Below are positions 22,691-48,222 of a stretch of DNA of 64,000 nucleotides, piece by piece. How positions within the stretch are numbered: the stretch's first letter is position 1; every line of letters begins with the position of its first letter. The translations under genes were made by a program, and so were the position numbers. This stretch comes from Tribonema minus (taxonomy: Eukaryota; Sar; Xanthophyceae; Tribonematales; Tribonemataceae): positions 186,001 to 250,000 of the forward strand of contig JAFCMP010000290.1 of assembly GCA_017506865.1 (NCBI GenBank), read 5' to 3'. The notes below the pieces were generated by a model. It was not told the origin of the DNA. It searched no databases and worked only from the letters and a program-made list of their open reading frames with translations.

Positions 22691-23117
22691 GTACACCAGT
22701 GATCACGAACACAACAACTTCACCGACTGTCTTTTCAACTACCACTGATGTACTGTATTGTACCGCCTCTTTTCTGCCTTTGCAGCGGCTGCAGTCGTGA
22801 CCCCTAGAAGTGCATACAGCAGCGGCGGGCAGGGTGGTGGGGCATCAGGAGGCTCATGTGGGGGAAGTTCTACGCCCCCTGCCAAGCACGGCCGGGCCAC
22901 ATTGCGGACCTCATACAGCACAACCGCAACACCCATCGCTACGCAGGGCGGTGGGGTCTCAGGGGACATCCTTGACCTGATACCGATCATTCAAGGCCTG
23001 TCGTCCAGTGCAGAGCAGGCCAAGCTATTGCAGACCATTGCAGAGGAGAAACTCACCATTGCGCAAGCACGCAAGGCCACCAAGGACGGCGCCGCCACAT
23101 CCGCCGTCATCGCAGCC

Positions 23118-23399
23118 TGACGGAACTATAACACCGTGGCAGAGTAGGACACCCAAGGTGGACCCAATGCAAAGTGCAGAACAGCACTAGACCAGGGCAG
23201 GCTGGTATTGCAAAGAAGTGATTATTGTGCAGGAGCGTGAGCAAGCGGAGAAATAGCCCTGAGTCAGGGGCGGAACAGTACCGGACTGGTGCTGGAACAT
23301 GCAGTGGTGGACTAACAAGAGAAACTCCCAGAATGGGGAGAAACCTGTGTAGGTATGCATGCACATGCAAGTAGGGTATGTAGGTATCATACTCCGTCA
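23118..23399 (-). repeat. Copia 3' LTR
   Basis: 282 bp, matched to 27938-28219. It is preceded (minus-strand sense) by the polypurine tract and flanked by CAGCC. Confidence 0.93.
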
Positions 23400-23799
23400 C
23401 CCTCCCTCAGTACGAAAGCCGTGTGCTGAAGTACTGAAATGCAAACATGCAGGTATGAGCCGGGTGTGCTCCTTGATGTGCAACGGTGTGCATGCTAACT
23501 GGTGTAGCAACCAGTGTGTACTCTGAAAACCTGGATTAGGCACCAGTGTGTACTGCAAGTGCGAACGGCGTGCTGCCGTGTGAAACTTGAGTGTGCGCCG
23601 CTTGATCCCTGCGGTTGTAGCTGCTGTTGAAGCTGAGCTGATGGTGTTTGACGAAGCTGATGAAGCTGTCGTTGAAGTTGTTGTTGAAGCTGAAGTTGAA
23701 GCTTGACATTAAAGCTGAGGTTGCTGCCTAGATGCCCATGATGAAGGCAGTGTGTGTGCGGTGAGCCGGCTTGGGCAGTGGCTTGGTGAAGCCGTCCGC
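23400..23799 (-). other. Copia 3' untranslated region with GTTGAA/GCTGAA simple repeat
   Basis: Between the ORF stop and the 3' LTR. It contains an imperfect triplet-type repeat of GAAGTT/GAAGCT words (about 23619-23705) and the polypurine tract next to 23400. No ORF supported. Confidence 0.7.
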
Positions 23800-27933: not shown

Positions 27934-27937
27934 AACC

Positions 27938-28219
27938 TGACGGAACTATAACACCGTGGCAGAGTAGGACACCCAAGGTGGACCCAATGCAAAGTGCAGA
28001 ACAGCACTAGACCATGGCAGGTTGGTATTGCAAAGAAGTGATTATTGTGCAGGAGCGTGAGCAAGCGGAGAAATAGCCCTGAGTCAGGGGCGGAACAGTA
28101 CCGGACTGGTGCTGGAACATGCAGTGGTGGACTAACAAGAGAAACTCCCAGAATGGGGAGAAACCTGTGTAGGTATGCATGCACATGCAAGTAGGGTATG
28201 TAGGTATCATACTCCGTCA
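27938..28219 (-). repeat. Copia 5' LTR
   Basis: 282 bp, partner of 23118-23399, directly followed (minus strand) by GGTT and the gag ATG. It carries the promoter of the element by family knowledge; no individual element is distinguishable. Confidence 0.93.
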
Positions 28220-28815
28220 CAGCCCAATCGGACGCCGACAGTCGCAAACTCCAGGAGAGGGCGCAGGTTGCCAAGAAGCTGGCCGACGACGGCGTACATG
28301 AAAGCGTAGCCTGTGCCGTGCTCTCCGGCGCCGCACCTCCTGCGGCGCCCACCACCGCTGCTCCTGCAGGCACCAAGCGCGGCGCCAAGGGTCCTGCCCG
28401 CCCTGTTGCGCCCCGTGTCAAGCGCGTAAAGCCTTCCAAGGCCGGCCCCCACACCGCCGATGCCAGCATCCCCCCTGGCCCCAATGCTGCTGTCGTCGCC
28501 ATGCCTGCCGGTTATCCAGCGCCAAGCAGCATCGGCTTTTATCAAGCTAGCAATGCGGTGCGTGCTTTCATGCAGCACTTCCGCATTGATGCACTGCCTA
28601 CCGACAACCCCGTGCGTACTGCTAAGGAAACCGAGAGTGTGCTCTGCGGGAGAGTCTTGTTTGTTTACAACAAACGAACGCAGAAGAAGAAGGGCGAGAG
28701 AGGTTTCCCAGGCGGCTCCTTTGCCGCGCACATGTTTCCCGTCATGCAAGCAGTGTTTAAGGATGCGATAGACACCAAGGAGGCTAAGAAGAGAGACGGT
28801 GGCCCTCCCCTCTGA

Positions 28816-31982: not shown

Positions 31983-32282
31983 TGTTTTAGGAGAGCTCAG
32001 CGGTGGGCTACAGCATGCTAACTTACCTTGTTGTTGGTGGAGGCCTGTGGAGGTGGGGGTGTCCTCAGCTATAGCTGTCTTGTGCCGAGACCGGAGGTAG
32101 AGAAAGAAGTGAGTGCGCAGCTGCCTTTTTTTGGCAAGTTGCAATTGGATCCTCGGCACAATCCAGGGGATCTGATTCAGGAGTAACATGTATGAAACCC
32201 TGCATCATCACCCGACATACCAGGGGTATGCCCTAATAATGGCATCATCAGACACGGATCCGACAATGTACAATCCGTAACA
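31983..32282 (-). repeat. Gypsy 3' LTR
   Basis: 300 bp. It matches 47567-47866 except for scattered substitutions and a few small indels around 32090-32130, so the copy is not brand new. Confidence 0.9.
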
Positions 32283-32296
32283 GCTCCCCCTTCTTC
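32283..32296 (-). promoter_or_regulatory. Gypsy polypurine tract
   Basis: Minus-strand GAAGAAGGGGGAGC directly abuts the 3' LTR. It is the expected primer for plus-strand DNA synthesis. Confidence 0.8.
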
Positions 32297-32475
32297 GATT
32301 CGTCGTCGTCCTCGACGGCGGTCTCAGGGATCAGCGCTGCAACAGAGGCACATTGGGCCCATAGGACTCGCACGCTAAGACTCTACATGACACATGGAAG
32401 GCTGGTGTCAAGCTAGCTGTTAGAGTCAAAGCGGTAGGAGGGATGGCGAGCCCCACAGGGTGAATCCGGGGGCGG

Positions 32476-33960
32476 CTATAGCACAACACGGACGTAGGCC
32501 AAGGAACTCTCAGTGGACATGGGTGTGTCGGCTTGGTCGACAATGAGGTTCCAAGTGCTATGGGGGGGATCTGTCAGTGGAGCGTTGGCGTCTTGCTTGT
32601 TGACTTTGTAGTACCCCTCACGCAAGCGCAGGCGTCGTGGCCGTGCTTCGCCCGTGAACAGCACATCGAAGGTGTGCCGTGAATGGCGAGGGTGGTACGC
32701 TACAAGGCGGCCGCGAGACCAACCAGTGCAGCTGCTGTAGTATCGGATCACATCACCTACGTTGTCTGCACCGAAGTTGCGAGGTAGCAGAGGGCTGGTG
32801 ACAAGAGTGATCTGCGGCTTGCTGGCGGTGATGCCGTGTTTCTGGGCCTTGCTCTTCACTGCTTCAGCCAGGGCAATGGCGGCCTTGACCTCAGTTGCGT
32901 TGAGCTCTTCCCATTCGCCATCGTCGTAGCGTGCGCGCCAGTACGGGTGGAGGTAACCGCTGATCGCACCCCAGATATACTTGCGTGAGCCGGAGGGGGT
33001 GGTCACCTCGCGCGCCACTGTCGTGCCGCGTGGAAACCGCTGTAGGGCCTCCTCGACCGAAAGCCGTCGCGTGGCTGGAGGCTCGGGGCGGCGCGCGTAC
33101 AGGGGTATGGAGTCGCCATGACGCAGCTCATACATGGCGTGGAACGTGTCAAGTACCCACGGCTGCGTCATTTCGAGCATGGCAGCTTCGCCGGTGAAGT
33201 CGATCTGCTGGCCCGTTCTGTCGATGTAGCGGTACTGCCACTTACCGTTGGGGCCGACGCGTCTGTCGACTATGCGTTCGAGCCATTCCTCATGGGGCAG
33301 GTCTCGGAGTTGCGCTGCTGTGAGTTGCACGTGTGGGGACGTGTGCTCAAAGTGGCTGGGGCGGAGCCGAAAGGGCTTCATGTGCGTGACGTGTATAGAT
33401 TTCTGTTTGGTGCGGCTGCCCATCATTCGACATGTGAAGGAGAGCCCTGAGTCACCTGCTTTTTCCATCACTTGCCAGGGCCCAGTGTACTTCTCGTCCA
33501 TCTTGCGTGCGCGCTCTTCGACCGGTTCTCGTCTGACGAGGACCCAATCTCCGATGGCGACGTTGACGGAGCGTTTGATGATGTCGTTGTGCTTTGCCAC
33601 TTTGGCGGCACGCTTGCCGAAGGCTTCACTGATGACCTTTTCGGCCAACAGCCGTGACTCAGCGCGCTTCTCGACCTCCGTGTGTAGGTCCATGGGACGG
33701 TCCGAGCGGTGGAACGCGTCGTGCGGCAGGGTGGCTTCACGTCCGTAGACGCAGAAGAACGGTGACAGGCCCGTTTCGTCGCGAGGCGTTGCTCGCAATT
33801 GAAACTGTAGTGCTTCGAGGCCTTCGTGCCAGTTGTCTTGGCGGTCGTTCACCCACAGGCGGAGTGATTGCAAGACGCGAGCGTTCATGCGTTCGGCGAC
33901 GCCGTTGGTCTGGGGGTGGTAGCCACTGGTCTGGATCTTTTCACGCCCATGCTGGTGCAC
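32476..33960 (-). CDS. Integrase C-terminal half with chromo-like and Tudor/agenet-like modules (frameshifted from pol)
   Basis: The frame opens with KIQTSGYHPQTNGVAERMN, which carries the third catalytic residue (Glu) of the DDE integrase. The two Asp residues sit in the pol frame upstream. A one-base loss in an A run near 33943-33950 separates the frames. Beyond the integrase core there is a GPY/F-like region (EKYTGPWQVMEKAG), then WLERIVDRRVGPNGKWQYRY, which resembles the start of a chromodomain. Two YDDGEWEEL / GWSRGRLVAYH-type segments follow and look like Tudor or agenet folds (about residues 300-345 and 395-450). Chromodomains in gypsy integrases read histone marks and steer integration. 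The Tudor assignment is inference from pattern only. Confidence 0.7.
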   Translation of the reverse strand: MHQHGREKIQTSGYHPQTNGVAERMNARVLQSLRLWVNDRQDNWHEGLEALQFQLRATPRDETGLSPFFCVYGREATLPHDAFHRSDRPMDLHTEVEKRAESRLLAEKVISEAFGKRAAKVAKHNDIIKRSVNVAIGDWVLVRREPVEERARKMDEKYTGPWQVMEKAGDSGLSFTCRMMGSRTKQKSIHVTHMKPFRLRPSHFEHTSPHVQLTAAQLRDLPHEEWLERIVDRRVGPNGKWQYRYIDRTGQQIDFTGEAAMLEMTQPWVLDTFHAMYELRHGDSIPLYARRPEPPATRRLSVEEALQRFPRGTTVAREVTTPSGSRKYIWGAISGYLHPYWRARYDDGEWEELNATEVKAAIALAEAVKSKAQKHGITASKPQITLVTSPLLPRNFGADNVGDVIRYYSSCTGWSRGRLVAYHPRHSRHTFDVLFTGEARPRRLRLREGYYKVNKQDANAPLTDPPHSTWNLIVDQADTPMSTESSLAYVRVVL

Positions 33961-36900
33961 AAGTCATGCACTACCCCAGCAATGAACTCTCCTCCCTGAT
34001 CAGTGACTATCTCTTCCACGAGGGCGCCTGCCTCCAGGAGGACAGTGTAGAGGTGCGCTGACACCTCGTTGGAGTCTTTGGACTTGAGTGGAAAGAGCCA
34101 CACAAAGCCAGACCGTGCCTCAACCACAGTAAGGATGTACTCAAACCCTCCTGCCCTCGAGCCCGGCGAGACTAGATCTGCATTGAGCCGTTGGAACATG
34201 TGAGTGGGGGGAAAGAGGTGCGTCCTGTACCGCGATGTATTGGCCTTCTTGTTCAGCTGGCACGCCAGGCAGCTGGTCACATAGGTGCGGACGTCATGGG
34301 CCATGCCAGTCCAGTAGTAGCGCTCGAACACACGGATGTGGGTGGCGCTAACGCCGGAGTGGCCTGCGCTGGCGTCGTCGTGACACAGACGAAGCACCAG
34401 GGTGCGTAGCGCGGCGGGAACGACCCATTGGCACAGCACTTGTCCGCGTTTGGGATGGCTGCTTGCGAAGTGTGCGAGGAGACCATCATGCTCAAGATTG
34501 TAGCACTCACGTGCCACCATCAAGTGCACGGCAAGGTCTTTGTCCGTGGGCAGCTCGTTGTCCGTCAACAAGCGAGTCACTGCACAGCAGAAGGGGTCTC
34601 GGCGCTGGAATTCGATGAAGGTCTCTCGGCTCAGCATGGCAGGTGTAGGCAGCGGTCCATCAGCCTGAGGCTGAGCCTCTGGCTGCGCGGTAAGAGGTAT
34701 GGGCTTAGGCCGCGGCAGAGTGCGCTTACGCGGGCGCTCACCGTGATTACGTGCAACGGCGTCAGCGGGGTCCGCGTCGTCTGTGGTGGCGGTGGTGGTG
34801 GCCACCTGGACGGCCTTTCCTGCGTTGCTGCGACGCTTCTTGCTCTGACGCCAGGGCTCGAAGTCGCCCAGGCCGAGGCTGTCCCTCTCCCCTTTGAAGT
34901 GTTCGTCAAGGAGAGCGTTCATGTGCATATCCATGGTGGCCGGGGTGAGCAGCGTGGTGGCATCACCTAGAGCGACCTCACATGGGGACTCGTCTGCGTG
35001 CATGCGGAGCAGCTGCTTTGCTTGCTCTGAAGTCACCTCGCTGAGGGACTGCGCGATGCCTCCAAAGCTGGCCAGACAGGCAGCAAGCTCGTTGAGGCGG
35101 AAGGGCGTGCCCTTGGAGTGCTGCACGACGTAGCCTTTGTAAGAGGCCACAGTGGCGACGCGCTCGTCAGAGGGGCGCTGTCTGGGCTCCGTGGTGTCAG
35201 CTCGCTCCACAGCGTGTGTGGTGGCTGGGTCGTCTGCGAACTGCACACCTGACGGCGGCGCATCAAAAGTGGCAACGGAGTCGGGCCAATCCTCGTCGGC
35301 GTGATCGACACGGCGGGGCGCGTCAAGCTCTGCCTGCTGAGGCAGCCGAGAGGGTCCGTCAGCGTTGGAGTTGACCTTGCCAGGCCGGTGCTGGACGGTG
35401 ATGTCGTACTCTTGTAGGCGCATGGCCCAGCGGAGCAGCTTGCCGTCATTCGATTGAAGTGTGAGGAGCCAGCGGAGGGCGGCTGCGTCGGTGATGACGG
35501 TGCATGGCCTGCCCCAGACGTAAGGTCGGAAGTGGTTCGTTGACAAAACTACTGCAAGACACTCAAGAGCTGTGGCTCCCAGCCTGGCGTCCTGAACAGA
35601 GTTCATCTTTGAGAAGTAGCCCACCACGACCTCACGCTGCAAGGTCCCCTCAACCAGGCTAGTGCGCCCAGTGCAGGTTGGCGGTTTGGCTCTCATGAGC
35701 GGGCTGTCAAGCTCCGTGACTGGCCGGAATTGCGTGAGAACACCGGCAGTGGCGACCTTGGAGCCGGCCGTGTAGAGCACGAAGGGCAGTGAGAAGTCGG
35801 GGTGCATCACTATGGAAGCGCTACACATCTCCTGCTTCAGCCGCTCAAAAGCGTCTCTGCGGCGTGCGTTCCACTCCATGCTCGCGCCATCCTTGGTGAG
35901 CTCGACAAGCGGGGCTGCGATGGCGCTAAAGTTGCGCACGTAGCGGCGGTAATAGTTGAACACGCCTAGAGCGACTTGTACGAGCCGCTTGTCTGCGAGG
36001 CCCCTAGCGTTGAGGGGTGCGCTCATGTCTGCCATTGCCTTCACCTTCTCAGGGTCAGGGCGAATGCCACCTGCACCAATGATATGTCCAAGGAACTTGA
36101 CCTCAGAGCGGAAGAGTTGGCACTTCTTCCAGGCCACACTCATGCCTGCAGCCTCTATGCGCGTGAGAACTGCGTCAAGGTGCTGGAGGTGGGCCTCCAT
36201 GTCGGTGTCATAGACGAGCACATCATCCACGTACACGGTTGCGTAGTCCTTCAGGGCTTCCTCGCCCAGCACACCGTGCATGAGTCGCGTAAATTGTGCA
36301 GGCAAGTTCACCAGGCCAAAAGGGGCCACAGTGTACTGCCAGAGTCCACCATCAGGCGTGCGGAACGCCGTTTTGGGCTTTGCGGACGCGGTGAGGGGCA
36401 CCTGGTGGTAGCCAGCAGCCATGTCCAGCGCGCTGATCACCTTGGTGCCTTGCACTTTGTGCAGCATGTCACCTATGTTGCCCAGCCCGTGGCTGTCGCG
36501 CTTGGTGACGGAGTTCAGCTTGCGGAAGTCGATGCAGAAGCGAATCTTGTCACCCTGTCGGGCGAGAACGGGGTTGCAAGCCCAGGGGCTATTGGAGGGC
36601 TCGATCTGCTTGCGTGCGTGCATCTGAGCCACCTGTTGCATGATGTACTCAGCCTCTGCGCGGGCCCAACGTCTGGCTCTGTCCGCCATGGGCAATGCAT
36701 CACCGGTGTCAATGTCGAACTCGGTGGTGTCTGTGACGTGCGGGTTTCTTGGGTCAGCCGGGAAGCAGGCGCGATGCCGCTTCAAGACGTCAAAGACTCG
36801 GTCTGCCCATACTTGCCCCTTCGAGTCCTTCTCCTTGAGTATGGGGTTGAGTTGACCATCGGTCATGAGCATGGTGCGCAGCTCCTCATCCCCACAAACG

Positions 36901-38666
36901 TCTGAGACAGAGCTGTATGCATTCACTCGGGCGGCGGCGCCAGGTGAGCGCTGCGGACTGTGTGCGCCTGGCACAGTGCTGGGGGAGTCTGACGCGGAGT
37001 CATGTGTGGGCGGTTCGGAGGCTAGGGCTTTGAGTGCAGCGTCTGCAGCCTGCCTGAACGCCCTTGACTGGTGGTGTCTGACTGCATATTCCAGCACGCG
37101 CTTCTGCAACTCGCATTTGAGCTGCTCTGTATTCCGGCTGGTCTGCTCATCAAGCTCAAGGATGTCCTCCTCTGTGGCAGGAATGGCAGTGCCCACAAAG
37201 GTGTTCTTACGAAGGAGGACAGGCAAGGAGCAAGTGTTGACGAGTTTGACCATGACAGGGTTGTTGGGTGCGACTGTGACCGCAGTAAAGGCTACACGAA
37301 GGCCTTGTGCAGCTAGGCTCTCCATCATCTGGTCATGGCTTGCGTGAATCAATGCAGTGTGCTCTGGCGTATCCTTGGGAGGCGGGAACAGTGCAAGTTC
37401 GACCACTTGCTCTGAAAATGGTGCCATCACTACCTCTTCTAGGAGGCGTGCACTGCGCTTGGCAGTGGGCGTGGGAGCAGGGACTGCGACGACTCTGTCC
37501 ACCAGGCCCTTGAAGTTGCACAACTTCGATGCCTTGTCGTCTTGCTTGTGCCGCATAGGGATTGCGACACTGGAGTCTGGTGTGGGGAAGAACTCCATTG
37601 TAGAATACGACAGGCTACTGCCGAAGCTCCCAAAGAAGTCGCCGCCGATGATGGCAGGCATGGGTATGTCGGTCACATAGAACCGATGGCGTACGAGGGT
37701 CTTCTTGAACCGGAGAGTCATCTGCACCGCGCCGGTGATGGGGATGCGCGTTTTGCTGTCTGCCAGTTCGATGGCGGTGAAGTCACCCTGTCGCAACGGT
37801 TGTACGCTACCCTCTGGGAGCCGTCTGCTCTGCTGTATGCTCAGCAGGCTCGCCGTGGCTCCGTTGTCCAGCATGCACTCCATGTTCAGCTCTTTGATGT
37901 CTCGCTGGTGGGGCATGCGTGTGATGAGGTTAATGAACCGTTGAGCGCTGGGGCTGCCTGTGGCGTAGGCCACCTTCTCGCGTGGCTGCACAGGCACGTG
38001 AGAAGAGCTAAGCGCTGCGAGATTCGCAAGAGGCTGCTGTTGTTGAAGTTGAAGTTGGGGTTGGAGTCGTTCTCCCCCTTCTTCTGAGCAGTCCATGGGC
38101 TCAGCGTCAGAGCCAGCGTCTGCAGAGACTGGGTCAGGTGCTGCATCTCTGAGAAAGCTGCCAGTGGGCGCGACCGCGTCTGTGTCGCTCTCCTGCTCAC
38201 CAGTGTTGTCTGGCACTAAGTCGACTGCGGACAGTTTGGCACGTGCTGTGCTCTCACTGTCGCGGGAGATGCGTTGGACAGCGTTGATGCAGCGTTGCAC
38301 GAGCGTGTGTTGCGTCTCTCGTGAGGCTGTGCCGTCTGTGTGCTCAAGCGCGGCAGTGCTGTCAGCGAGCCACTCAGGTGTGGGCGAGTTACGATCCAAT
38401 GACATTGCAAAGCCATCGTCAGAGGGGCTGGACTCTTGCATGTCAAAGATCCCACTGCACCATGCAGCAAGCAAGAATGCGTGCGCGACATCAGGCATGA
38501 CAAGGTTGGCCAGCCAAAGCTGCAACTGCTCTTGGCTGCCCGTTGGCAAGTCAGACCTGTATGTCAGCATGAGCGCCATGTCGCGGGGGGTGACAGTCAT
38601 AGCATCACGTACATCACATGCGTCATCGGGGGATGGGATGTAGAGAGCAGGGTTCGCAGGAGGCAA
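33885..38666 (-). CDS. pol: Gypsy Pol: protease, reverse transcriptase, RNase H, N-terminal integrase
   Basis: The protease shows CMLDNGATASLLS (about 264) and AIIGGDFF. Reverse transcriptase shows KIRFCIDFRKLN, SALDMAAGYHQV, FGLVNLPAQF and VYVDDVLV (about 810). RNase H has ALECLAVV and VITDAAALRWLL, but the first catalytic position reads LYTAGSK where the family has TDAS, so an essential Asp is missing. The integrase has HDDASAGHSG and CLACQ (HHCC), LNADLVSPG and IVTDQGGEF. The protein then runs into nonsense and a stop because of the downstream frameshift. It overlaps the methyltransferase ORF (stop at 38597) in the -1 frame, so expression would need frameshifting or a separate start. The order protease-RT-RNase H-integrase is that of Ty3/gypsy. 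Confidence 0.92.
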   Translation of the reverse strand: MPPANPALYIPSPDDACDVRDAMTVTPRDMALMLTYRSDLPTGSQEQLQLWLANLVMPDVAHAFLLAAWCSGIFDMQESSPSDDGFAMSLDRNSPTPEWLADSTAALEHTDGTASRETQHTLVQRCINAVQRISRDSESTARAKLSAVDLVPDNTGEQESDTDAVAPTGSFLRDAAPDPVSADAGSDAEPMDCSEEGGERLQPQLQLQQQQPLANLAALSSSHVPVQPREKVAYATGSPSAQRFINLITRMPHQRDIKELNMECMLDNGATASLLSIQQSRRLPEGSVQPLRQGDFTAIELADSKTRIPITGAVQMTLRFKKTLVRHRFYVTDIPMPAIIGGDFFGSFGSSLSYSTMEFFPTPDSSVAIPMRHKQDDKASKLCNFKGLVDRVVAVPAPTPTAKRSARLLEEVVMAPFSEQVVELALFPPPKDTPEHTALIHASHDQMMESLAAQGLRVAFTAVTVAPNNPVMVKLVNTCSLPVLLRKNTFVGTAIPATEEDILELDEQTSRNTEQLKCELQKRVLEYAVRHHQSRAFRQAADAALKALASEPPTHDSASDSPSTVPGAHSPQRSPGAAARVNAYSSVSDVCGDEELRTMLMTDGQLNPILKEKDSKGQVWADRVFDVLKRHRACFPADPRNPHVTDTTEFDIDTGDALPMADRARRWARAEAEYIMQQVAQMHARKQIEPSNSPWACNPVLARQGDKIRFCIDFRKLNSVTKRDSHGLGNIGDMLHKVQGTKVISALDMAAGYHQVPLTASAKPKTAFRTPDGGLWQYTVAPFGLVNLPAQFTRLMHGVLGEEALKDYATVYVDDVLVYDTDMEAHLQHLDAVLTRIEAAGMSVAWKKCQLFRSEVKFLGHIIGAGGIRPDPEKVKAMADMSAPLNARGLADKRLVQVALGVFNYYRRYVRNFSAIAAPLVELTKDGASMEWNARRRDAFERLKQEMCSASIVMHPDFSLPFVLYTAGSKVATAGVLTQFRPVTELDSPLMRAKPPTCTGRTSLVEGTLQREVVVGYFSKMNSVQDARLGATALECLAVVLSTNHFRPYVWGRPCTVITDAAALRWLLTLQSNDGKLLRWAMRLQEYDITVQHRPGKVNSNADGPSRLPQQAELDAPRRVDHADEDWPDSVATFDAPPSGVQFADDPATTHAVERADTTEPRQRPSDERVATVASYKGYVVQHSKGTPFRLNELAACLASFGGIAQSLSEVTSEQAKQLLRMHADESPCEVALGDATTLLTPATMDMHMNALLDEHFKGERDSLGLGDFEPWRQSKKRRSNAGKAVQVATTTATTDDADPADAVARNHGERPRKRTLPRPKPIPLTAQPEAQPQADGPLPTPAMLSRETFIEFQRRDPFCCAVTRLLTDNELPTDKDLAVHLMVARECYNLEHDGLLAHFASSHPKRGQVLCQWVVPAALRTLVLRLCHDDASAGHSGVSATHIRVFERYYWTGMAHDVRTYVTSCLACQLNKKANTSRYRTHLFPPTHMFQRLNADLVSPGSRAGGFEYILTVVEARSGFVWLFPLKSKDSNEVSAHLYTVLLEAGALVEEIVTDQGGEFIAGVVHDLCTSMGVKRSRPVATTPRPTASPNA

Positions 38667-40828
38667 GCCAGGCCAGCGACGCGTGGGCTGCCAAACAGTC
38701 CATCAAGGTCATGCACGCCTTTGGAGGAACGCACGCGAGGGCGCAAGAAGCAACCGCGAACACGGCGTGGAACCTTCAGAACGTGTCTCATGGAAAGTGG
38801 AATTCCATTATTGCACATAGCATTGAGGACTGCGCAGAGGCGCTGGAGCGCGGCCTTGACACCAAAGCGGTTGCGCACAATGAGAACAAGCGCGCGCGTA
38901 CGCCTGCAGCAGGTGTCGAGCTCCGATGCCTTGATGACTGTCTCGAGTACTGCGTACCCGTTGGCCAACAGGTGGGCCTTCCCCCTACCCCAAGCTTGCG
39001 ACTTGAGCATCTGCGGAACGTTCTCTGACAACACCAACTCAAGCTCTGCCTCCGTAACCACCTTGGCCAGCTTGTATGTCAGCTCCGCCCCCTCTCCCTC
39101 CACTCCCTCCCCGTTTGCAAAATCTGTGCAAGGGGTAGAGGACGTAGTGAGGTGAGGGCGCAGCTTGCGCAGTTGGTGGATGATGCGAGGATCATCAATT
39201 GACATGCACTGGGGTGCGGCAGACGTAGGGTGTGTCTCCCTATACGCGTCACACGTCTTCGCGCAGTTGTCAACAGCGAGCACTGTGTTGACATGCAAGC
39301 CAAGTTTACTTGCCTGCGCAAACCCTTCCTCCCAACCACCTGTCCCGCAGCACAGCGACGCGTGCGTGAGATGGCGCTCCGTCGCCTGCTCCCTAGCACG
39401 CTCACTCGTCTGAGGCGCGGCAGGAGTCGCAGCAGCAGGGGAAGGGGGAACAGCCACGTGAGGGCGCGCATGGAAGGGTGCCGGCGGTGCAGTCATGCCA
39501 GCGTCAGTAGGCGCTGATGCAGCAGAGGCACGCGCAGCATGCGGTATCACCGGTGCCGCAGGGGCCATCGCAACAGGCGTAGATGCCGATGCAGCACGCG
39601 CAGCGTGCAATGTCGCAGGTGCAACAGGGGTACTTGCAACAGGCGTGGGTGCAGACAAATTGGCAGGCTGGGCTACAGCGGACGACATGACGCCCAGCGC
39701 AGCAAGCATTGCGGTTGCGCAGCGGGGTGCGTGAACGCTTAAGCGGCTGTCGAGCACTGACTCACTGTGTTTGGTGGCCATGGCAGCGGCGATGGCTGCC
39801 TGGATGTCGGCCGTCCACGGCTGCACTGCGGCAGCAGCCGCAGTGGGGGCTGGGGCTGGTGCCGGCGCCGCGGCAGCAGGTGCCTGGTACACGGTGGGCC
39901 AGGAGGGCGCGGGGCCGGCACCGTGCATGGCAGCGAGCTGCGGGACAATTTGCGGCGGCATGGCATAGATGGGCGCTCCCTGCATCGCGAAGACAGGCGC
40001 GGCAGAGGCAGGCGGCGCAAGGTCGCGGCTGCGACTGCGCGACGGGGCGCGGCGGTTGTCCCGACACTCAGAGCTTGCGTGATGATCGGCATACCGTTCG
40101 CCAGTGGTAACCATCACACCACAGCGCTTACATGTCCAGTTGTTGAACGGCTTGTAGGTCAAGCCGGGCTTGGGGTTAGAGGCCGGCTGGCCGTCCTGCG
40201 CTGCTTTGCGCTTGCCGGGATTGAGAGGCGTGGAAGGCGGCGCAGCAGCAGGGGCGCCCTTGCCATGGAGCACCGCAAGCTGCGCAAACGCCAACTCCGT
40301 GTTATCCGCCTCCAGCGCAGACCGGGCTGCTTGGATACACTCTTGCCGCTTAGCCTCCTTGGACGCCTTGCGCCGGGGAAGGCTTGCAACATCAGGCGCC
40401 TGCGTAGGGGTGCCTTTAGGGGGAGTGACAGTGGCGGCGACAGCGGAAGTGTCGTGAGCGCCAGCGCTGTCTGGGAGCGGGATCCCATGCTCTTGCAAGT
40501 GAGTGCGCCAGACGGCGGCGGCATGGTTCACACTGACTGTGAGGGGGTCCTGCCAGAAGTTGTCGCGTCTGTCTTGCTGAACCTTAACAAAGTCAGGCAT
40601 GCAGCTGTAAAACTTCTCACGGCGAGTGGCCTCGTTAGAGCCCCCCTCTACACGCCGGCCATAAGTGTCAAGCCTGTTGACAAAGTCACGCGGGGACTCA
40701 GCATGCCAGTCGTATACGAGGCGAGACCACTCATCGCGCGCAGTGTGGCGTGCAGTCCAGTTGTGCGCCCAGGTGGTCAATGCAACGCATTTCGACCTGT
40801 ACGACAATTGTGGTGGTGTGCCAACCAC
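38597..40828 (-). CDS. Gag C-terminal region with zinc finger fused to a C5-cytosine DNA methyltransferase
   Basis: Native codons start near 40757; the first few come from the nested insertion. A Gag-like helical part (FVNRLDTYGRRVEGGSNEAT) is followed by a C-x2-C...H-H-x4-C finger (CKRCGV...HHASSEC, residues 233-255). A long Ala/Pro-rich linker follows, and then a methyltransferase from about residue 485. Motif I is LCCGTGGWEEGF (492-503, S-adenosylmethionine binding). Motif IV is STPCTDFANGEG with nucleophile Cys567. Motif VI is SENVPQ (E602, N603, V604). Motif VIII is RRTRALVLIVRN (about 641-652). A target-recognition-like stretch (RGCFLRPRVRSSKGVHDLDG) follows. I do not see a clear motif X (GN.V), so the C-terminus may be divergent or truncated. 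The family methylates cytosine C5 in DNA. It sits between gag and pol in the same orientation as the element, so it is element cargo and not a flanking gene. Confidence 0.85.
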   Translation of the reverse strand: MVGTPPQLSYRSKCVALTTWAHNWTARHTARDEWSRLVYDWHAESPRDFVNRLDTYGRRVEGGSNEATRREKFYSCMPDFVKVQQDRRDNFWQDPLTVSVNHAAAVWRTHLQEHGIPLPDSAGAHDTSAVAATVTPPKGTPTQAPDVASLPRRKASKEAKRQECIQAARSALEADNTELAFAQLAVLHGKGAPAAAPPSTPLNPGKRKAAQDGQPASNPKPGLTYKPFNNWTCKRCGVMVTTGERYADHHASSECRDNRRAPSRSRSRDLAPPASAAPVFAMQGAPIYAMPPQIVPQLAAMHGAGPAPSWPTVYQAPAAAAPAPAPAPTAAAAAVQPWTADIQAAIAAAMATKHSESVLDSRLSVHAPRCATAMLAALGVMSSAVAQPANLSAPTPVASTPVAPATLHAARAASASTPVAMAPAAPVIPHAARASAASAPTDAGMTAPPAPFHARPHVAVPPSPAAATPAAPQTSERAREQATERHLTHASLCCGTGGWEEGFAQASKLGLHVNTVLAVDNCAKTCDAYRETHPTSAAPQCMSIDDPRIIHQLRKLRPHLTTSSTPCTDFANGEGVEGEGAELTYKLAKVVTEAELELVLSENVPQMLKSQAWGRGKAHLLANGYAVLETVIKASELDTCCRRTRALVLIVRNRFGVKAALQRLCAVLNAMCNNGIPLSMRHVLKVPRRVRGCFLRPRVRSSKGVHDLDGLFGSPRVAGLACLLRTLLSTSHPPMTHVMYVML
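40761..40808 (-). repeat. 48-bp extra piece outside the terminal LTR
   Basis: Exact copy of 41583-41630 inside the element, appended beyond the 3' LTR end. In element sense, its internal copy starts just after a second GGGGGCG purine tract. Confidence 0.85.
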
Positions 40829-41090
40829 AGAGGGTGAATGTGTGTGAGACCCAGTCTCAACCTTGACTTGAAACAGCCGGAAATGCCCACTGCCTGGTGC
40901 CGTGGGAGGTGGACCGGAGCGCCCTCCCCAAGTGCAATATCACCCTGATATGCAAGCGTGGCTAAACAGGTAGAAGCAGAAGAAGCTGTGCCATGTTGAA
41001 GGTTAAAGTCGTGTCTGATTACTGCACAAAAGGCATTCGCAATGCAAGCCCTACTTCAACTACTGCTCCACCTAGGGTTGCCTCACTACA
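40809..41090 (-). repeat. Nested element LTR 1 (3' LTR of unit A)
   Basis: 282 bp, TG...CA ends, a few substitutions from the other two copies (for example GGTGAATG where the others have GGTGAAAG). Confidence 0.9.
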
Positions 41091-41734
41091 ATCGCCCCCT
41101 GCATGGCTCTTCCACTCCACAAGTCGAAAGCCATGCACTCATGTGAGGCGCCCTCGATACTACACATGCAATACTGCTACAAAATGCAATGCAAGCACGG
41201 CTGTCATCCACGACCGCCGAAACTCTCAAATAACACGGGCATATGGCATATACCAGCAAACCTCCGCCACCAACAAGTCTCAGAAAGACTGTGGCGCGTC
41301 TGGCTGGAGTGGCAACTACATTGTTGCAAAACAACACATGACCTAACGCTGCAACAGACAAACTAACGAGCAAGCAACTGGCTCTGCTGCTATATGCGCC
41401 CCCGACATGTTGGCACTGCGCAACCAACGCAAGCAAGCGCACCACCATTCTACAACTACTGTAGTATGTACGCCCCCGACATGTTGGCACTGCGCACTTA
41501 TCCCCCCCCCCGCGTTTGTGTAACACACGCAAAAGAAGTGCGCATGTACAGCTGAAACAAAACTAAGGGTGGGCGGGTGGGTTTGTGCGCCCAGGTGGTC
41601 AATGCAACGCATTTCGACCTGTACGACAATCGCCCCCAGACACTACACTGCTGATGGTATGTAAGCGGTGTGGTGTCTAAACGTACAGGCTCAACAGTGA
41701 ACCTGCAAACAAGCGCCCCCATGAGCCAAACCGC

Positions 41735-43087
41735 TCAAGATGCACTGGTAATACACATGGCGCATAAAAGAGCTGCTGCCGTCTGTGTCTCACAAATGTC
41801 AGCGCAATATGCGCTAAGCACAGCCCGATTGCTGGTGGGAGACAATGCTGTGCTAATGTCAGCACCGCCGCGCCTCCCCGCTGTTGCTGAGTCTGGCGGC
41901 TGCGCGCCATCGCCACGCCTCTCCTTGCTCGCATGCCGCCTGTGCAGCGCCTTATGCCGCGCCTGCCAGTCGCGGAGGCGCTGCCGCTCCTCAGCCGTAT
42001 GCGCCGACCAGTACTCCCGCCGCTTCTGCTGCCGCCGCGAGAGCGGCCGTCCCAAGCTGCTGCCTGCGGCGCGCATGCTGCGCCGCGCAGCGCTGATGCC
42101 GGCGCGCTGTTGCATCGGCACCGTCGCCGTCGCCGAGCTCGCCGCACCAGTGCCGCCACCCTGGTGGCGTGCGCCGCCGCCGCCGCCTTGATGGCGTGCG
42201 CCGCTGCCACCGCCTCGCGCGCCGCCGCTGCCGCCCCGCGCGCCGCCGCTACCGCCGTCGCGTGCGCCGCTGCAGCCGCCGCCGCTGCCGCCGCCGCGCG
42301 CGCCGCCGCTACTGTCGCCGCCGCCACTGCCGCGCGCTGGGAGCGGGGCCGCAGTGTCGCCACTGTCACACGCGCCACTGCGTGCGCGCAGCGGTGAAAG
42401 CGCCGCTGTCGCCGGGGCCAAAAGCGCAGCTGCGGTGCCGCCGCTGTTGTGCCCGCCGATGTCGCATGCAGGCACAGCTGCATGCGCCGCCGTTGTCGGC
42501 GCTGAGAGCACGACTGCAGTGCCGCTGCTGCCAAGCGCGCCACTGCTGCATGCTTGCGATGTTGGAAGCGCCTCCGTCGGCGCTGAGCGTGCGGCACATA
42601 CGCCGCCGCTGTTGTTGGCGCAGCTGTTGGTGCCCGCGTTGCCATCGGCTGCGCGCGCCGACGCCAGCACTGTAGCCATTCTCGCAGCATCCTCCTCCAG
42701 CTCCGACACCCGACTCCGCAGCTGCAACAGCGCTGCTGAATCAGCAGCGCATTGCCGCTCCAGCTCTCGCTGCGCTGCTGCCTCAGCCTTCTTGCTTTGC
42801 TGTAGCCGCTCTTGCAGGATGCTGACTCTCTGCTGCTCCTCAGCGACTCCCTGTGTGGCTTCTGCAAGGCACGTGCTGAGCCGGCGTCGCTCCTCCTGCA
42901 GTTTGACCTCCGCAGAGACAAAATAGGTCATTGCGCTGAGCACCTCACCAAGCTTTTCCCCCACGTCCCTGTCTCCGGTGATGTAAAACCATTCCGAGGC
43001 TGAGCCCCAACGTCCCTTCTTGAGCAGCCGGGTGTACACGCTAAGCGCTTCAGCCCGACTCGCAACAGCACGTTTCCCCCCCACCAT
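41735..43087 (-). CDS. Coiled-coil, Gly/Ser/Ala-rich ORF of the nested element
   Basis: 450 codons from an ATG at 43087, about 0.4 kb inside the 5' LTR of unit A. The N-terminus is folded-looking (WGSASEWFYITGDRDVGEKL), then a strong coiled coil (LQEERRRLSTCLAEATQG ... LQERLQQSKKAEAAAQREL, about residues 55-130). A low-complexity Gly/Ser/Ala region follows, and a basic stretch (REYWSAHTAEERQRLRDW). No protease, RT or integrase motif. The position and coiled coil fit a Gag-like structural protein of a non-autonomous element, but similarity to known Gag is not visible. The high GC and reciprocal open frames on the plus strand are shadows. Confidence 0.6.
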   Translation of the reverse strand: MVGGKRAVASRAEALSVYTRLLKKGRWGSASEWFYITGDRDVGEKLGEVLSAMTYFVSAEVKLQEERRRLSTCLAEATQGVAEEQQRVSILQERLQQSKKAEAAAQRELERQCAADSAALLQLRSRVSELEEDAARMATVLASARAADGNAGTNSCANNSGGVCAARSAPTEALPTSQACSSGALGSSGTAVVLSAPTTAAHAAVPACDIGGHNSGGTAAALLAPATAALSPLRARSGACDSGDTAAPLPARGSGGGDSSGGARGGGSGGGCSGARDGGSGGARGGSGGARGGGSGARHQGGGGGARHQGGGTGAASSATATVPMQQRAGISAARRSMRAAGSSLGRPLSRRQQKRREYWSAHTAEERQRLRDWQARHKALHRRHASKERRGDGAQPPDSATAGRRGGADISTALSPTSNRAVLSAYCADICETQTAAALLCAMCITSAS

Positions 43088-43493
43088 TTTGCTTCCAGTA
43101 AAAGGTGTTAAGGTGCTGCTGAATAGTAGATGAGCACGTGCTGCCAGAAAGGTGGCAGTATGCTGAAGCAGCAGCTGCTGCTGCTGCTAAGTAGTGGAGA
43201 GCCGAAGGGCGCCTTACGACGAGCACGCCCCCAGCTATAGAAATCCCGAAAACTCTGCTGTCGCCGTTTACAGCTGCTGCTGCTGACCGGAACTCCGTGT
43301 GTGGCTGGTTCTGAAGCCCCTGGATCCACCGAGTGCTGTAAGTGGCCCCTTAAGGACGCCAGTAGACGGCACAGCTAATGGTGCAGAAGTTTGAACCCCA
43401 GCCACCTCAGGTTGCGTGCAGCAGAGGTGCCGACGGAAACAGCGAAAGCCGTGTGTTGGAGCACTATCCGAAATAGTACTGGACAGGTCAGCA

Positions 43494-43510
43494 CCTGCCG
43501 AGATCAGCCA
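43494..43510 (-). promoter_or_regulatory. Primer binding site of nested unit A
   Basis: TGGCTGATCTCGGCAGG, one base inside the 5' LTR of unit A. It begins with TGG, as expected for pairing to a tRNA CCA end. Unit B lacks it. Confidence 0.7.
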
Positions 43511-43511
43511 T

Positions 43512-43793
43512 TGTGGTGGTGTGCCAACCACAGAGGGTGAAAGTGTGTGAGACTCAGCCTCAACCTTGACTTGAAACAGCCGGAAATGCCCACTGCCTGG
43601 TGCCGTGGGAGGTGGACCGGAGCGCCCTCCCCAAGTGCAATATCACCCTGATATGCAAGCGTGGCTAAACAGGTAGAAGCAGAAGAAGCTGTGCCATGTT
43701 GAAGGTTAAAGTCGTGTCTGATTATTGCACAAAAGGCATTCGCAATGCAAGCCCTACTTCAACTACTGCTCCACCTAGGGTTGCCTCACTACA
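43512..43793 (-). repeat. Nested element LTR 2 (shared by units A and B)
   Basis: 282 bp, between the two internal regions, so it serves as the 5' LTR of unit A and the 3' LTR of unit B. Confidence 0.9.
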
Positions 43794-45388
43794 ATCGCCC
43801 CCTGCATGGCTCTTCCACTCCACAAGTCGAAAGCCATGCACTCATGTGAGGCGCCCTCGATACTACACATGCAATACTGCTACAAAATGCAATGCAAGCA
43901 CGGCTGTCATCCACGACCGCCGAAACTCTCAAATAACACGGGCATATGGCATATACCAGCAAACCTCCGCCACCAACAAGTCTCAGAAAGACTGTGGCGC
44001 GTCTGGCTGGAGTGGCAACTACATTGTTGCAAAACAACACATGACCTAACGCTGCAACAGACAAACTAACGAGCAAGCAACTGGCTCTGCTGCTATATGC
44101 GCCCCCGACATGTTGGCACTGCGCAACCAACGCAAGCAAGCGCACCACCATTCTACAACTACTGTAGTATGTACGCCCCCGACATGTTGGCACTGCGCAC
44201 TTATCCCCCCCCCCGCGTTTGTGTAACACACGCAAAAGAAGTGCGCATGTACAGCTGAAACAAAACTAAGGGTGGGCGGGTGGGTTTGTGCGCCCAGGTG
44301 GTCAATGCAACGCATTTCGACCTGTACGACAATCGCCCCCAGACACTACACTGCTGATGGTATGTAAGCGGTGTGGTGTCTAAACGTACAGGCTCAACAG
44401 TGAACCTGCAAACAAGCGCCCCCATGAGCCAAACCGCTCAAGATGCACTGGTAATACACATGGCGCATAAAAGAGCTGCTGCCGTCTGTGTCTCACAAAT
44501 GTCAGCGCAATATGCGCTCAGCACAGCCCGATTGCTGGTGGGAGACAATGCTGTGCTAATGTCAGCACCGCCGCGCCTCCCCGCTGTTGCTGAGTCTGGC
44601 GGCTGCGCGCCATCGCCACGCCTCTCCTTGCTCGCATGCCGCCTGTGCAGCGCCTTATGCCGCGCCTGCCAGTCGCGGAGGCGCTGCCGCTCCTCAGCCG
44701 TATGCGCCGACCAGTACTCCCGCCGCTTCTGCTGCCGCCGCGAGAGCGGCCGTCCCAAGCTGCTGCCTGCGGCGCGCATGCTGCGCCGCGCAGCGCTGAT
44801 GCCGGCGCGCTGTTGCATCGGCACCGTCGCCGTCGCCGAGCTCGCCGCACCAGTGCCGCCACCCTGGTGGCGTGCGCCGCCGCCGCCGCCTTGATGGCGT
44901 GCGCCGCTGCCACCGCCTCGCGCGCCGCCGCTGCCGCCCCGCGCGCCGCCGCTACCGCCGTCGCGTGCGCCGCTGCAGCCGCCGCCGCTGCCGCCGCCGC
45001 GCGCGCCGCCGCTACTGTCGCCGCCGCCACTGCCGCGCGCTGGGAGCGGGGCCGCAGTGTCGCCACTGTCACACGCGCCACTGCGTGCGCGCAGCGGTGA
45101 AAGCGCCGCTGTCGCCGGGGCCAAAGGCGCAGCTGCGGTGCCGCCGCTGTTGTGCCCGCCGATGTCGCATGCAGGCACAGCTGCATGCGCCGCCGTTGTC
45201 GGCGCTGAGAGCACGACTGCAGTGCCGCTGCTGCCAAGCGCGCCACTGCTGCATGCTTGCGATGTTGGAAGCGCCTCCGTCGGCGCTGAGCGTGCGGCAC
45301 ATACGCCGCCGCTGTTGTTGGCGCAGCTGTTGGTGCCCGCGTTGCCATCGGCTGCGCGCGCCGACGCCAGCACTGTAGCCATTCTCGT
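43794..45388 (-). pseudogene. Truncated internal region of nested unit B
   Basis: Almost identical to 41091-42687 of unit A, but it lacks the A segment from about 42688 to 43511. That missing part holds the primer binding site and the start of the coiled-coil ORF. Only the Gly/Ser-rich C-terminal 314 codons remain (45382-44438). The join to LTR 3 lies at CGAGAATGG. Confidence 0.85.
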
Positions 45389-45670
45389 TGTGGTGGTGTG
45401 CCAACCACAGAGGGTGAAAGTGTGTGAGACCCAGTCTCAACCTTGACTTGAAACAGCCGGAAATGCCCACTGCCTGGTGCCGTGGGAGGTGGACCGGAGC
45501 GCCCTCCCCAAGTGCAATATCACCCTGATATGCAAGCGTGGCTAAACAGGTAGAAGCAGAAGAAGCTGTGCCATGTTGAAGGTTAAAGTCGTGTCTGATT
45601 ACTGCACAAAAGGCATTCGCAATGCAAGCCCTACTTCAACTACTGCTCCACCTAGGGTTGCCTCACTACA
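45389..45670 (-). repeat. Nested element LTR 3 (5' LTR of unit B)
   Basis: 282 bp, directly followed in element sense by truncated region B. On its outer side it abuts the interrupted gag. Confidence 0.9.
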
Positions 45671-46872
45671 CAGTCATCATATTTGGTTGTGAGGGCAGCT
45701 ACGCGCTGGTCATAGGTGAGGGTGTCCCAGCCCGTGGTAACTCCGTCAATAGTGGCAGAGAGCCCAGACACCTCAGAACGCTTGTCTGCAGGGATGGCAG
45801 CATCAAGAGCAACAGACCAATACTCCCTCTTCACGCCCCACTGCTGCCACATGCGTTCACGTGAGGAAAGCGCAGATGTCAGCTGCAGCGGTTCAAGGCA
45901 TCATGTGGAGGGGAGTTTGGCGATGATGTTCAGCTGTGCAACGCGCTCCCTGTCAGGATCGCGGGAGGGTGCGTCGCGAGGAGCGTCGTGGGCAGGCAAG
46001 GGGTTAGCAATACCTGCGCGAGCGTTGCGCTTGGCGGCGATGGCGTTTACGACCTCTTCAGCGGTAGCGCCACCGTTGAGGAGGTTTAGGGCGTGAGTAG
46101 CTAGCTCGCGTAAGATGACCAGCTGAGCGCTGCTGGCCTCGCGGGGTGCCCTGTAAGTGACCAGCGCAGCGTCGAACTCTGACTTGTCAGCAGAGAGAGC
46201 AGTGAGCTGCTCGCGGATGTCGGCACGCTCAGCGTCAGTGGCGGCCTTGACGAGAGACTTCTGAGCGCGCTGGATGTCGGCGTCCACGCACATCAGAGCA
46301 ACCTTGAGCCGGTTCACGGCGTCAGAGGCTTGGCGCGACTCCTCTACGAGGGAGGTGTGCTCAGCGCGCAATGACACAAATAGCTCTTTGACCGCCACCG
46401 GAGCGTCTGTTGGGGGGCCGGGGATGAGAGCAATGGCCTGGGATGCGCGAACAAGCTCCCTGATGGTGGTGTCCTGTGCGCGACCAGGAGCGGGAGGAGT
46501 GGAAAGTGTATCTTTGCTGCGGCTCACCGGGTTTCGCGCGGTGCGCTCGCTGCGTCCATCACCCTCCGAGGCGGAGTTGTCCGCGCCAGAGCGTGCACGG
46601 GGACGGCCAGCGGCTTCCTCCGCCTGCTTGGCAGCGGCTTCAGCGGCGGCAGCGGCAGTGGGCGAGCGCGAAGTGGTTGCAGGGGCTGCGGCTCTGGCGG
46701 CGGCGGCAGCGGCACGCCTGCCATTGCCCCTGCGCTCGGCTCCCTGGATCCCAGCTGCATTACCACTCTCATTGTTTGCCATCTGCTGAGGTGAGAAAGT
46801 AGGGAGAGGGTGAGCTCCAAGACTTTGGTGCATGTAGTCAGTGGTGGTTTTAATGCTCATGCGTGTGGTCAT
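45653..46872 (-). pseudogene. gag: Gypsy Gag N-terminal part, with in-frame stop and nested insertion
   Basis: Starts at 46872, or more likely at the ATG before ANNESGNAAG (about 46782). It runs through an Ala-rich region, SQAIALIPGPPTDAPVAVKE and a long helical segment (KSLVKAATDAERADIREQLT). An in-frame TGA at 45903-45901 interrupts it. The same frame continues through REYWSVALDAAIPADKRSEV to KYDD, where the nested element sits. The next gag codons are at 40757 and below (WTARHTARDEW). In combination this is a typical helix-rich capsid-like Gag followed by the zinc finger in the methyltransferase ORF. The stop could be a dead mutation or a sequencing error. Confidence 0.7.
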
Positions 46873-47566
46873 GAACCAACAGGAGCAGCGGGCACAGCAT
46901 CACATGTGCACTTTGCTGCCAGTAAACCACTCCTCCCCCCATTGCGATATGATGCTGGGGTCGCTGCGAGATGAATGGTGCATGTGAAGTCCACAGCCCT
47001 ACCACCAAAGCCGTGGCGGCGTCATGACATGCAACACGGGTGGCCACCTGTACGCCTCGCATCTTGAGCGTGGAGAGGGCAGTGCCAGCGTCCGACGGCA
47101 GCTGGCGCGGCAGACAGTCTCTGTCAGGGCTGCCCTACTGACTACATCACGTCAACATTCAAGGCTCGTTGAGTCGATCATGGCAATGTGCGAGCACCTG
47201 GGTGCTGTCGGGACACACATGTGCGCATGCCTGCTTGAGCAACACATGAGAGCAGCCGCGGGAGACTGCACGAGCCAGTGAATGTCGTCTGCTTCGCGCA
47301 AACACACACACACACAAATAACTAGTGCCGCTTCGCTTCGAAGGCGGAGCGTCCTACTTGAGGTTAGCTGGCCACGAGAGGCGGCCACGATGTGTACGTT
47401 TGTGCTGTTCTACGCTACGCTGTGCTAACCCTTAAGCCTACGGAGGGCGGTCGAGCTTAGCGTGGCTCCGCCATTGAGGCAGACGACCGTGCACAACGCT
47501 GTCAAGCGTTGCGAGGCCTCGCAGCTAAGGCGGAGGACACGCACAAGCGCCTGCTTCGAGTGCCAC
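46873..47566 (-). other. Gypsy 5' untranslated leader
   Basis: About 0.7 kb between the primer binding site and gag. No coding evidence; it should hold the packaging and leader functions. It contains a short CA microsatellite (around 47303-47316). Confidence 0.6.
47550..47565 (-). promoter_or_regulatory. Gypsy primer binding site
   Basis: TGGCACTCGAAGCAGG, one base after the 5' LTR. The TGG start fits pairing with a tRNA CCA terminus. The specific tRNA is not identified. Confidence 0.7.
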
Positions 47567-47866
47567 TGTTTTAGGAGAGCTTAGCGGTGTGCTACAGCAT
47601 GCTAACTTACCTTGTTGTCGGCGGAGGCCTGTGGAGGTGGGGGTGTCCTCAGCTATAGCTGTCTTGTGCCAGGAGGGAGAGATGAGGAGAAGAAGTGAGT
47701 GTGCAGCTGCCTTTTTGGCAAGTTGCAATTGGATCCTCGGCACAATCCAGGGGATCTGACTCAGGAGTAACATGTATGAAACCCTGCATCATCACCCGAC
47801 ATACCAGGGGTATGCCCTAATAATGGCATCATCAGACACGGATACCACAATGTACAATCCGTAACA
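47567..47866 (-). repeat. Gypsy 5' LTR
   Basis: 300 bp, partner of 31983-32282. It adjoins an unrelated minus-strand coding fragment at 47867. Confidence 0.9.
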
Positions 47867-48222
47867 GATATTCCTGGTGCACTTGATGCGTCGCCAAAAA
47901 CCGAGCTACCTGCGACGCGCTGATCCCCCAGTTTTTTGTGCGCATGTACGACAGCAGCCGTTGGCGCCCCAGCGATGCTGGCATGGCGGCGAATTCTCGC
48001 TCCAGCACATCAAAAACCAATGGCTGTTCCACGACGACTCTACCCCTGTACAGGGGGATGCCGTCCTCGATCTGCAGTCCGTCGAATGGAAAGCGAGCTT
48101 CAATGTCGGCGAGGTCCCGGAATTTGAATCGGGCCAGCGTGAAGTCTCTGCGCTGCTGCTCCGGGTCGGCAGATGGCCTGTCGCCGCTCAGGTCTCGCGC
48201 TTTTGCTATCGCCTCTTCGGCC
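47867..48222 (-). pseudogene. Integrase-like N-terminal fragment cut by the gypsy LTR
   Basis: Reading from an ATG at about 48222, the frame gives MAEEAIAKARDLSGDRPSAD, then FRDLADIEARFPFDGLQIED and LLSYMRTKNWGISASQVARF followed by LATHQVHQEY, ending at the LTR boundary. The helix-turn-helix-like segment and H..HQ ending recall the zinc-binding N-terminus of retrovirus-like or Polinton-like integrases. This is a pattern impression only. The rest of the gene is not found on the other side of the gypsy element. Confidence 0.35.

Follow-up and report, generated by a model that had tools for sequence, protein, structure and literature searches.

DNA methylation is usually regarded as a weapon of the host against its transposons. 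The locus described here raises the question of whether a retrotransposon may carry such an enzyme itself: in a 64,000-nt stretch of DNA (the window; positions 186001-250000 of contig C290, from a genome of 158 Mb in 554 contigs), motifs of a C5-cytosine methyltransferase (MT) lie beside a Gag zinc finger, upstream of a pol region. The original prediction took this for a Gypsy element encoding its own C5-MT, an interpretation that is well supported. Neither of the findings that would have refuted it was made: there is a significant profile match, and other copies carry the domain at the same place. Reverse transcriptase (RT), RNase H, and integrase follow downstream in the same orientation. 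The further questions are how the enzyme came to be there and what it does for the element.

The window contains a whole Ty3/Gypsy element (31983..47867, minus strand, as are all of its parts given below), a broken copy of a family designated F1; this and the other family labels were coined in the present analysis. Its ends were set by LTR comparison with another copy, and its DNA is 93-95% identical to that of an F1 relative, L039. The 3' LTR (879 bp, 31983..32861) is 94.8% identical to the LTR of a copy elsewhere on the contig (C290:610981-622587); of the 5' LTR, LTR comparison finds the last 301 bp (47567..47867), the remainder being missing. The first half of gag (45901..46872, identified by comparison with relatives) has no match in a Pfam search of its ORF, and is severed from the rest by a nested insertion (approximate ends 40807..45687) that is absent from a relative otherwise 93-95% identical to the window copy. 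This insertion, also in minus orientation, is a tandem array of three near-identical LTR-like repeats (starting at 40807, 43510, and 45387; 98.9-99.7% identical) and two internal units (99.7% identical); its ORFs are low-complexity only, and it is perhaps a non-autonomous LTR element. Beyond it come the CxxC-H-C zinc finger of Gag (40064..40132, by motif), the MT domain (38436..39379, by Pfam and alignment with relatives), and an aspartic-protease-like region (approximately 37584..37895), this last called from position and motif; the window ORFs and the relatives examined have no Pfam protease match. RT (RVT_1, 98.6 bits, 36078..36551), RNase H (RT_RNaseH, 72.2 bits, 35406..35798), and the zinc-binding domain (H2C2) and first part of the core of integrase (33933..34421), all recognized by Pfam within ORF 33885-38666(-), complete the Ty3/Gypsy order of protease-like region, RT, RNase H, and integrase. 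The remaining integrase and C-terminal region (32476..33960, by ORFs and Pfam) is in another frame and extends into the 3' LTR; the second frame change of the window copy thus falls inside integrase. The predicted pairing of LTRs with a primer binding site and polypurine tract held for the LTR pair, with its 5' member a remnant. In the window family a stretch starting TGG follows the 5' LTR, with no tRNA match made, and neither a convincing polypurine tract nor a clear target-site duplication was seen at the element ends, so that neither priming site was confirmed. Because of its frame changes, its gag split by the nested array, and its shortened 5' LTR, the window element is a dead copy of a family whose polyprotein runs Gag, zinc finger, C5-MT, protease, RT, RNase H, integrase.

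A weak Tudor-like match (PF21743) follows the integrase of F elements at the C-terminus of L040:1104-9998 and at window positions 32476-33960 (E 0.002 and 0.044, respectively, below cut-off). The window also holds a Copia-type element (23103-28220, minus strand), with a 1377-residue ORF containing gag, integrase, and RVT_2 and LTRs of ~295 bp that are 98.6% identical, and a ferric-reductase-like transmembrane stretch (10466-11122, plus strand; PF01794, 35.3 bits) that is probably part of a host gene.

The 743-residue ORF 38597-40828(-) gives a significant match to Pfam DNA_methylase over residues 489-655 (50.7 bits, E 2.3e-13; curated cut-off for PF00145, 22 bits). Elsewhere PF00145 scores 50.9 bits in L039, 45.2 in L040, and 68.4 in L043, a member of a second lineage discussed below. 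Motifs I (39352-39335), IV (39139-39119), VI (39028-39011), and VIII (38905-38882) are present as predicted, together with the Gag finger. The MT is not confined to this ORF as had been thought: motifs I-VIII are there, with the C-terminal part, including motif IX-like and X-like sequence (38594-38478), at the head of ORF 33885-38666 in another frame, and open relatives translate straight through at this point. Nor is the start of this ORF a native 5' end; it lies in the nested array, from which its first 7 residues derive, and the first half of gag is the separate ORF described above. Alignment shows the catalytic Cys, ENV, and RxR to be invariant across four F families at 31-44% identity, and among the F1 and F2 loci motif IV is intact in 24 of 26 and motif VI in 25 of 26. 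Family F6 retains the catalytic Cys and has lost the preceding Pro, and the F clade shows degenerate versions of motifs IX and X. Structure comparisons of models of the F enzyme and of its counterpart in the second lineage (G) both find the C5-MT fold, the F1 model being weak at residues 204-259.

Compared with the sequences of solved structures, the F MT has DNMT2 among its best matches (E 5e-8), as also among its top Foldseek matches; the DNA enzyme M.HhaI equals or outscores it. No DNMT3 chain is among the 26 solved-structure matches of the F MT at E up to 1, and DNMT3 is not among the best 50 entries of two structure searches, although such a listing excludes nothing. The G MT is nearest in structure to M.HaeIII and DNMT1 (best 50 entries). 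The MT of the window family is probably an active methyltransferase.

If the enzyme belongs to the element, it should recur with it. A genome search with the window MT protein gave at least 144 matches (386 candidates, 143 scored). Seventeen loci belong to F1, 14 of them (window included) covering almost the whole query at 95-100% identity and three partial. Alignments of the other F1 loci end at query residue 240 or 241, the point of the window frame shift, which is therefore not common to them; only the locus on C79 has a short piece beyond it, at 76%. The F1 copy at C290:610981-622587 is 11.6 kb long. Its direct LTRs are identical over 881 bp, and its reading frame stays open for 3129 codons, ending inside its own 3' LTR; F1 has inserted recently. 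In this single frame the F1 order is gag, finger, MT, protease-like region, RT, RNase H, integrase, and an identical order is found in 10-kb stretches of L040, L041, and L042 (families F2-F4). Relatives are open for 3000 to 3500 codons across gag, MT, and pol, and in other copies the domain occupies the same place as it does in the window. The F1 frame enters the 3' LTR by ~380 bases (L039; L067, C290:621707-622587), the LTR encoding the C-terminus of the protein, and a copy on contig C311 has an open frame of 6208 codons.

Searching with the F1 RT gave 151 matches, 150 of them listed, and for 121 of these 150 an F-type MT lies 1-5 kb upstream in the same orientation; none of the 150 has one downstream at that distance. 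The median RT-MT distance is 2.76 kb (111 pairs, from an earlier count with fewer MT places). Of the other 29 RTs, six have a contig start too close by; for the remaining 23, no contig end explains the lack of a listed MT, and these may represent nested insertions, decay, MTs beyond the matches listed, or true absence. Conversely, 79 of the ~200 F-type MT places are without an RT among the matches listed; this set of places was compiled manually, with G-type and other-type entries and most second pieces of one copy excluded. Identity among F1-F4 is 33-51% for the MT, 20-27% for gag, 36-44% for protease, and 55-73% for RT. The conservation pattern of the MT, and the outermost position of F4 for MT and RT alike, would fit a single acquisition in the ancestor of F with co-inheritance since. 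That the domain is a C5-MT inherited along with the element is close to certain.

Outside the present genome, relatives occur at 68-78% identity. JGI proteins P0002 and P0003 are two pieces of an F1-like element, and P0010 is a protease-MT fusion of the G type.

The MT is under purifying selection. Within families, pN/pS on the MT is 0.33 for F1 (13 copies, 9 distinct, window copy left out) and 0.29 for F2 (12 copies, 7 distinct), with no stop or gap in either. In comparisons between families, the F clade gives dN/dS values of 0.14, 0.14, and 0.22, and the G clade 0.25, 0.11, and 0.09, with dS saturated for the last of these; a near-identical F4 pair gives 2.0 from a handful of changes. By these sequence ratios the MT is shown to be selectively maintained in both lineages.

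The G lineage, represented by L043, is arranged differently: protease, MT, RT, RNase H, integrase, and chromodomain (PF00385, 29.2 bits, cut-off 25.1, residues 2184-2239, after the integrase matches). Copies related to L043 have the protease motif DTGA. L043 is 29-37% identical to F1-F4 in RT and 22-28% in MT, and its MT as query gave at least 95 genome matches (406 candidates, 92 scored). For RT-MT pairing, 142 of 150 RT entries were used (three second pieces and five F-clade entries were left out), with an MT set of 75 of the 95 matches (second pieces left out) and six more places. Among the matches listed, a G-type MT lies 1-5 kb upstream of 62 of the 83 RTs at least 60% identical to that of L043, and of 52 of the 59 at least 84% identical. 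A third Gypsy group (RTs 36-39% identical to L043) has neither a G-type nor an F-type MT upstream of any of its 59 RTs among the matches listed. This absence is provisional, since it rests on those matches. With no detected MT in this group, the enzyme would not be required for Gypsy spread.

Are F and G then products of one capture or two? An MT tree of 35 sequences (first ~175 residues, no DNMT3 included) supports an F clade (0.892) and a G clade (0.991). F, G, and two other types jointly receive 0.668, with a node inside at 0.162; the tree supports each of the two clades but not their placing. The odds are about even that two Ty3/Gypsy lineages of one alga captured different C5-MTs independently, at two points of the polyprotein, each keeping its enzyme through diversification into several families, with a third group spreading without one. 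Alternatively, there may have been a single old capture, the MT moving later.

Further MT types fall outside the F and G clades (L073, C509:276960-278160; L077, C59:210840-212050). Stand-alone MT ORFs of ~370-390 residues (L001, C223:937874; L002, C223:702740; L003, C181:39962) are the top three PF00145 matches in the genome, with M.HhaI the nearest solved structure to L002 (E 1e-13). For a possible viral origin, two pattern scans over viral contigs produced 35 and 15 matches with no confirmed relative among them, and a viral structure search with the G MT returned phage, herpesvirus, and giant-virus enzymes that are 8 to 22% identical (best 50 entries).

The host had been predicted to be a chlorophyte, a candidate rejected on a fragment of rbcL in a nuclear contig. 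Two such fragments were found (L056, C334:714136-714324; L057, C112:516888-517037), probably plastid DNA moved to the nucleus. L056, the one compared with solved structures, has nine best relatives at 114-117 bits, the next at 95 and less, and 1gk8 at 65.5; we take the nine to be red-type Rubiscos, and 1gk8 to be green-type. Because the red-type fragment is on a contig of over 1.8 Mb (C334) that also holds a light-harvesting gene match, the host is judged from its sequence to be an alga with a red-lineage plastid, not a chlorophyte. Its light-harvesting proteins pointed to no particular group, and a pattern for an 18S stretch had no match.

As to function, the MT is an in-frame block beside a nucleic-acid-binding finger. 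It would for this reason be translated together with Gag and Pol, and enter the particle alongside the RNA and cDNA of the element. There it could methylate cytosines in newly made cDNA of its own element, at integration or earlier; the copy would then arrive marked like host DNA, either shielded from whatever attacks foreign DNA that lacks methylation or placed in a particular chromatin state. This is the simplest role, because the RNA and cDNA of the element are the nearest nucleic acids in the particle; self-methylation has also been proposed for other elements by De Mendoza et al. (PMC5890265), who showed CG methylation in yeast for SymbioDIRS-Dnmt3; the KnitGypsy and SymbioLINE enzymes gave no methylation in yeast and were inconclusive there. 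The account as a whole, self-methylation of element cDNA by the MT in the particle, is given a probability of roughly 0.55, and the chances that own cDNA is the main substrate are likewise slightly better than even. A benefit to the element itself is suggested by the second, chromodomain-bearing Gypsy lineage, which carries a different MT between protease and RT. Weighing against this reading are the third Gypsy group, which spread with no MT detected, the negative yeast results just mentioned, the departures from intact motifs in the F clade and in F6, the weak stretch of the F1 model, the 23 related RTs for which no MT is listed, the ratio of the near-identical F4 pair, and the scant depletion of CpG.

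Sequence differences between copies suggest CpG methylation, by whichever writer. In pairwise comparisons, which are non-independent, C/T differences between the 14 F1 MT loci number 13.7 per 1000 at CpG vs. 5.8-7.3 elsewhere, and those between 12 F2 loci 9.2 vs. 0.7-2.2; the comparison covers MT-bearing copies alone, without an MT-free control, and CpG is hardly depleted in them (o/e 0.82-0.88).

The same enzyme might act on other substrates. It could target host chromatin, methylating the insertion site or neighboring genome and so steering silencing, integration, or tolerance; effects on the host epigenome are discussed by De Mendoza et al. (PMC5890265). In the second lineage, where the L043 polyprotein holds both chromodomain and MT, it could place methylation close to the marks recognized by the chromodomain. 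But Pfam finds no chromodomain in the window copy or its F-clade relatives, and the MT is a block of a particle polyprotein rather than a separate nuclear protein, which leaves this reading unlikely. RNA is a still more doubtful substrate, whether genomic RNA, the tRNA primer, or an RNA-DNA hybrid: the resemblance of the F MT to DNMT2, a tRNA methyltransferase, and its position adjoining the Gag finger would favor it, as would the suggestion of an RNA substrate for SymbioLINE-Dnmt (PMC5890265), yet M.HhaI scores as well or better and the G enzyme is structurally closest to M.HaeIII and DNMT1.

There is a marginally smaller chance that the MT lacks catalytic activity and serves to bind nucleic acids as a structural module within Gag or Pol. 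The degenerate motifs IX and X and the Pro lost in F6 would be expected of such a module; the invariant Cys, ENV, and RxR, the motifs preserved in 24 to 26 of the 26 loci, and the low dN/dS would not. A host MT gene, contamination, or chance placement beside an element could be imagined from the stand-alone ORFs L001-L003, but is ruled out, to a vanishing residual probability, by recurrence at ~200 places, 121 of them at a fixed distance from related RTs among the matches listed, selection, frames joining gag, MT, and pol, and relatives outside this genome, including the protease-MT fusion of the second type. Self-methylation of element cDNA remains the preferred reading.

These elements themselves, then, carry a cytosine-methylating enzyme under purifying selection, in ~200 places and in at least one copy with identical LTRs. 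Its benefit could be examined inside a single organism, with the two MT-bearing Gypsy lineages set against the Gypsy group in which no MT was detected. The range of such elements is extended to an alga whose plastid is of the red lineage, and that of their enzymes to ones with no Dnmt3 match. If there were two captures, self-methylation would have evolved repeatedly as a means of survival for LTR elements, and one of the lineages would unite a methyl writer and a chromatin reader in a single polyprotein.

Chromodomain-bearing Ty3/Gypsy elements are known as chromoviruses. L043 resembles them in its protease, RT, RNase H, integrase, and chromodomain, and differs by the C5-MT of ~330 residues between protease and RT. 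Precedents for MT-bearing retrotransposons from 2018, named in the original prediction, are real (PMC5890265). In that report, KnitGypsy-Dnmt3 of the charophyte Klebsormidium nitens is likewise an LTR Gypsy element with a C5-MT inside its polyprotein, conserved residues, and purifying selection; its enzyme, however, is Dnmt3-class and within Pol, whereas the F-clade MT is between Gag finger and protease with no DNMT3 among its 26 structure matches, and its repeats are DIRS-like where F1 has plain direct LTRs. SymbioDIRS-Dnmt3 and SymbioLINE-Dnmt of dinoflagellates, described in the same report, are also C5-MT retrotransposons with very many copies in one algal genome, but are DIRS and LINE rather than Ty3/Gypsy elements, with Dnmt3 or orphan dinoflagellate enzymes. 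Other reports describe DNMT3s in retrotransposons and orphan DNMTs (PMC12344493), and Ty3/Gypsy and DIRS elements bearing DAM and DCM in several groups including stramenopiles and red and green algae (PMC6338049). Sola1-1 of Ectocarpus, a DNA transposon with ParB and an N4/N6 methylase domain, is another methylase carrier for which self-marking has been proposed (PMC12477816), although its methylase chemistry and transposition machinery differ from those of the F and G elements. A search of titles and abstracts, with most subscription journals outside its scope, found no Gag-MT-protease Gypsy clade, no protease-MT-RT chromodomain Gypsy, and no genome with both. MT-bearing retrotransposons as such are already known (PMC5890265). 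The novelty here lies in where the MT sits, in its lack of a Dnmt3 match, in the presence of two architectures within a single genome, and in the lineage of the host.
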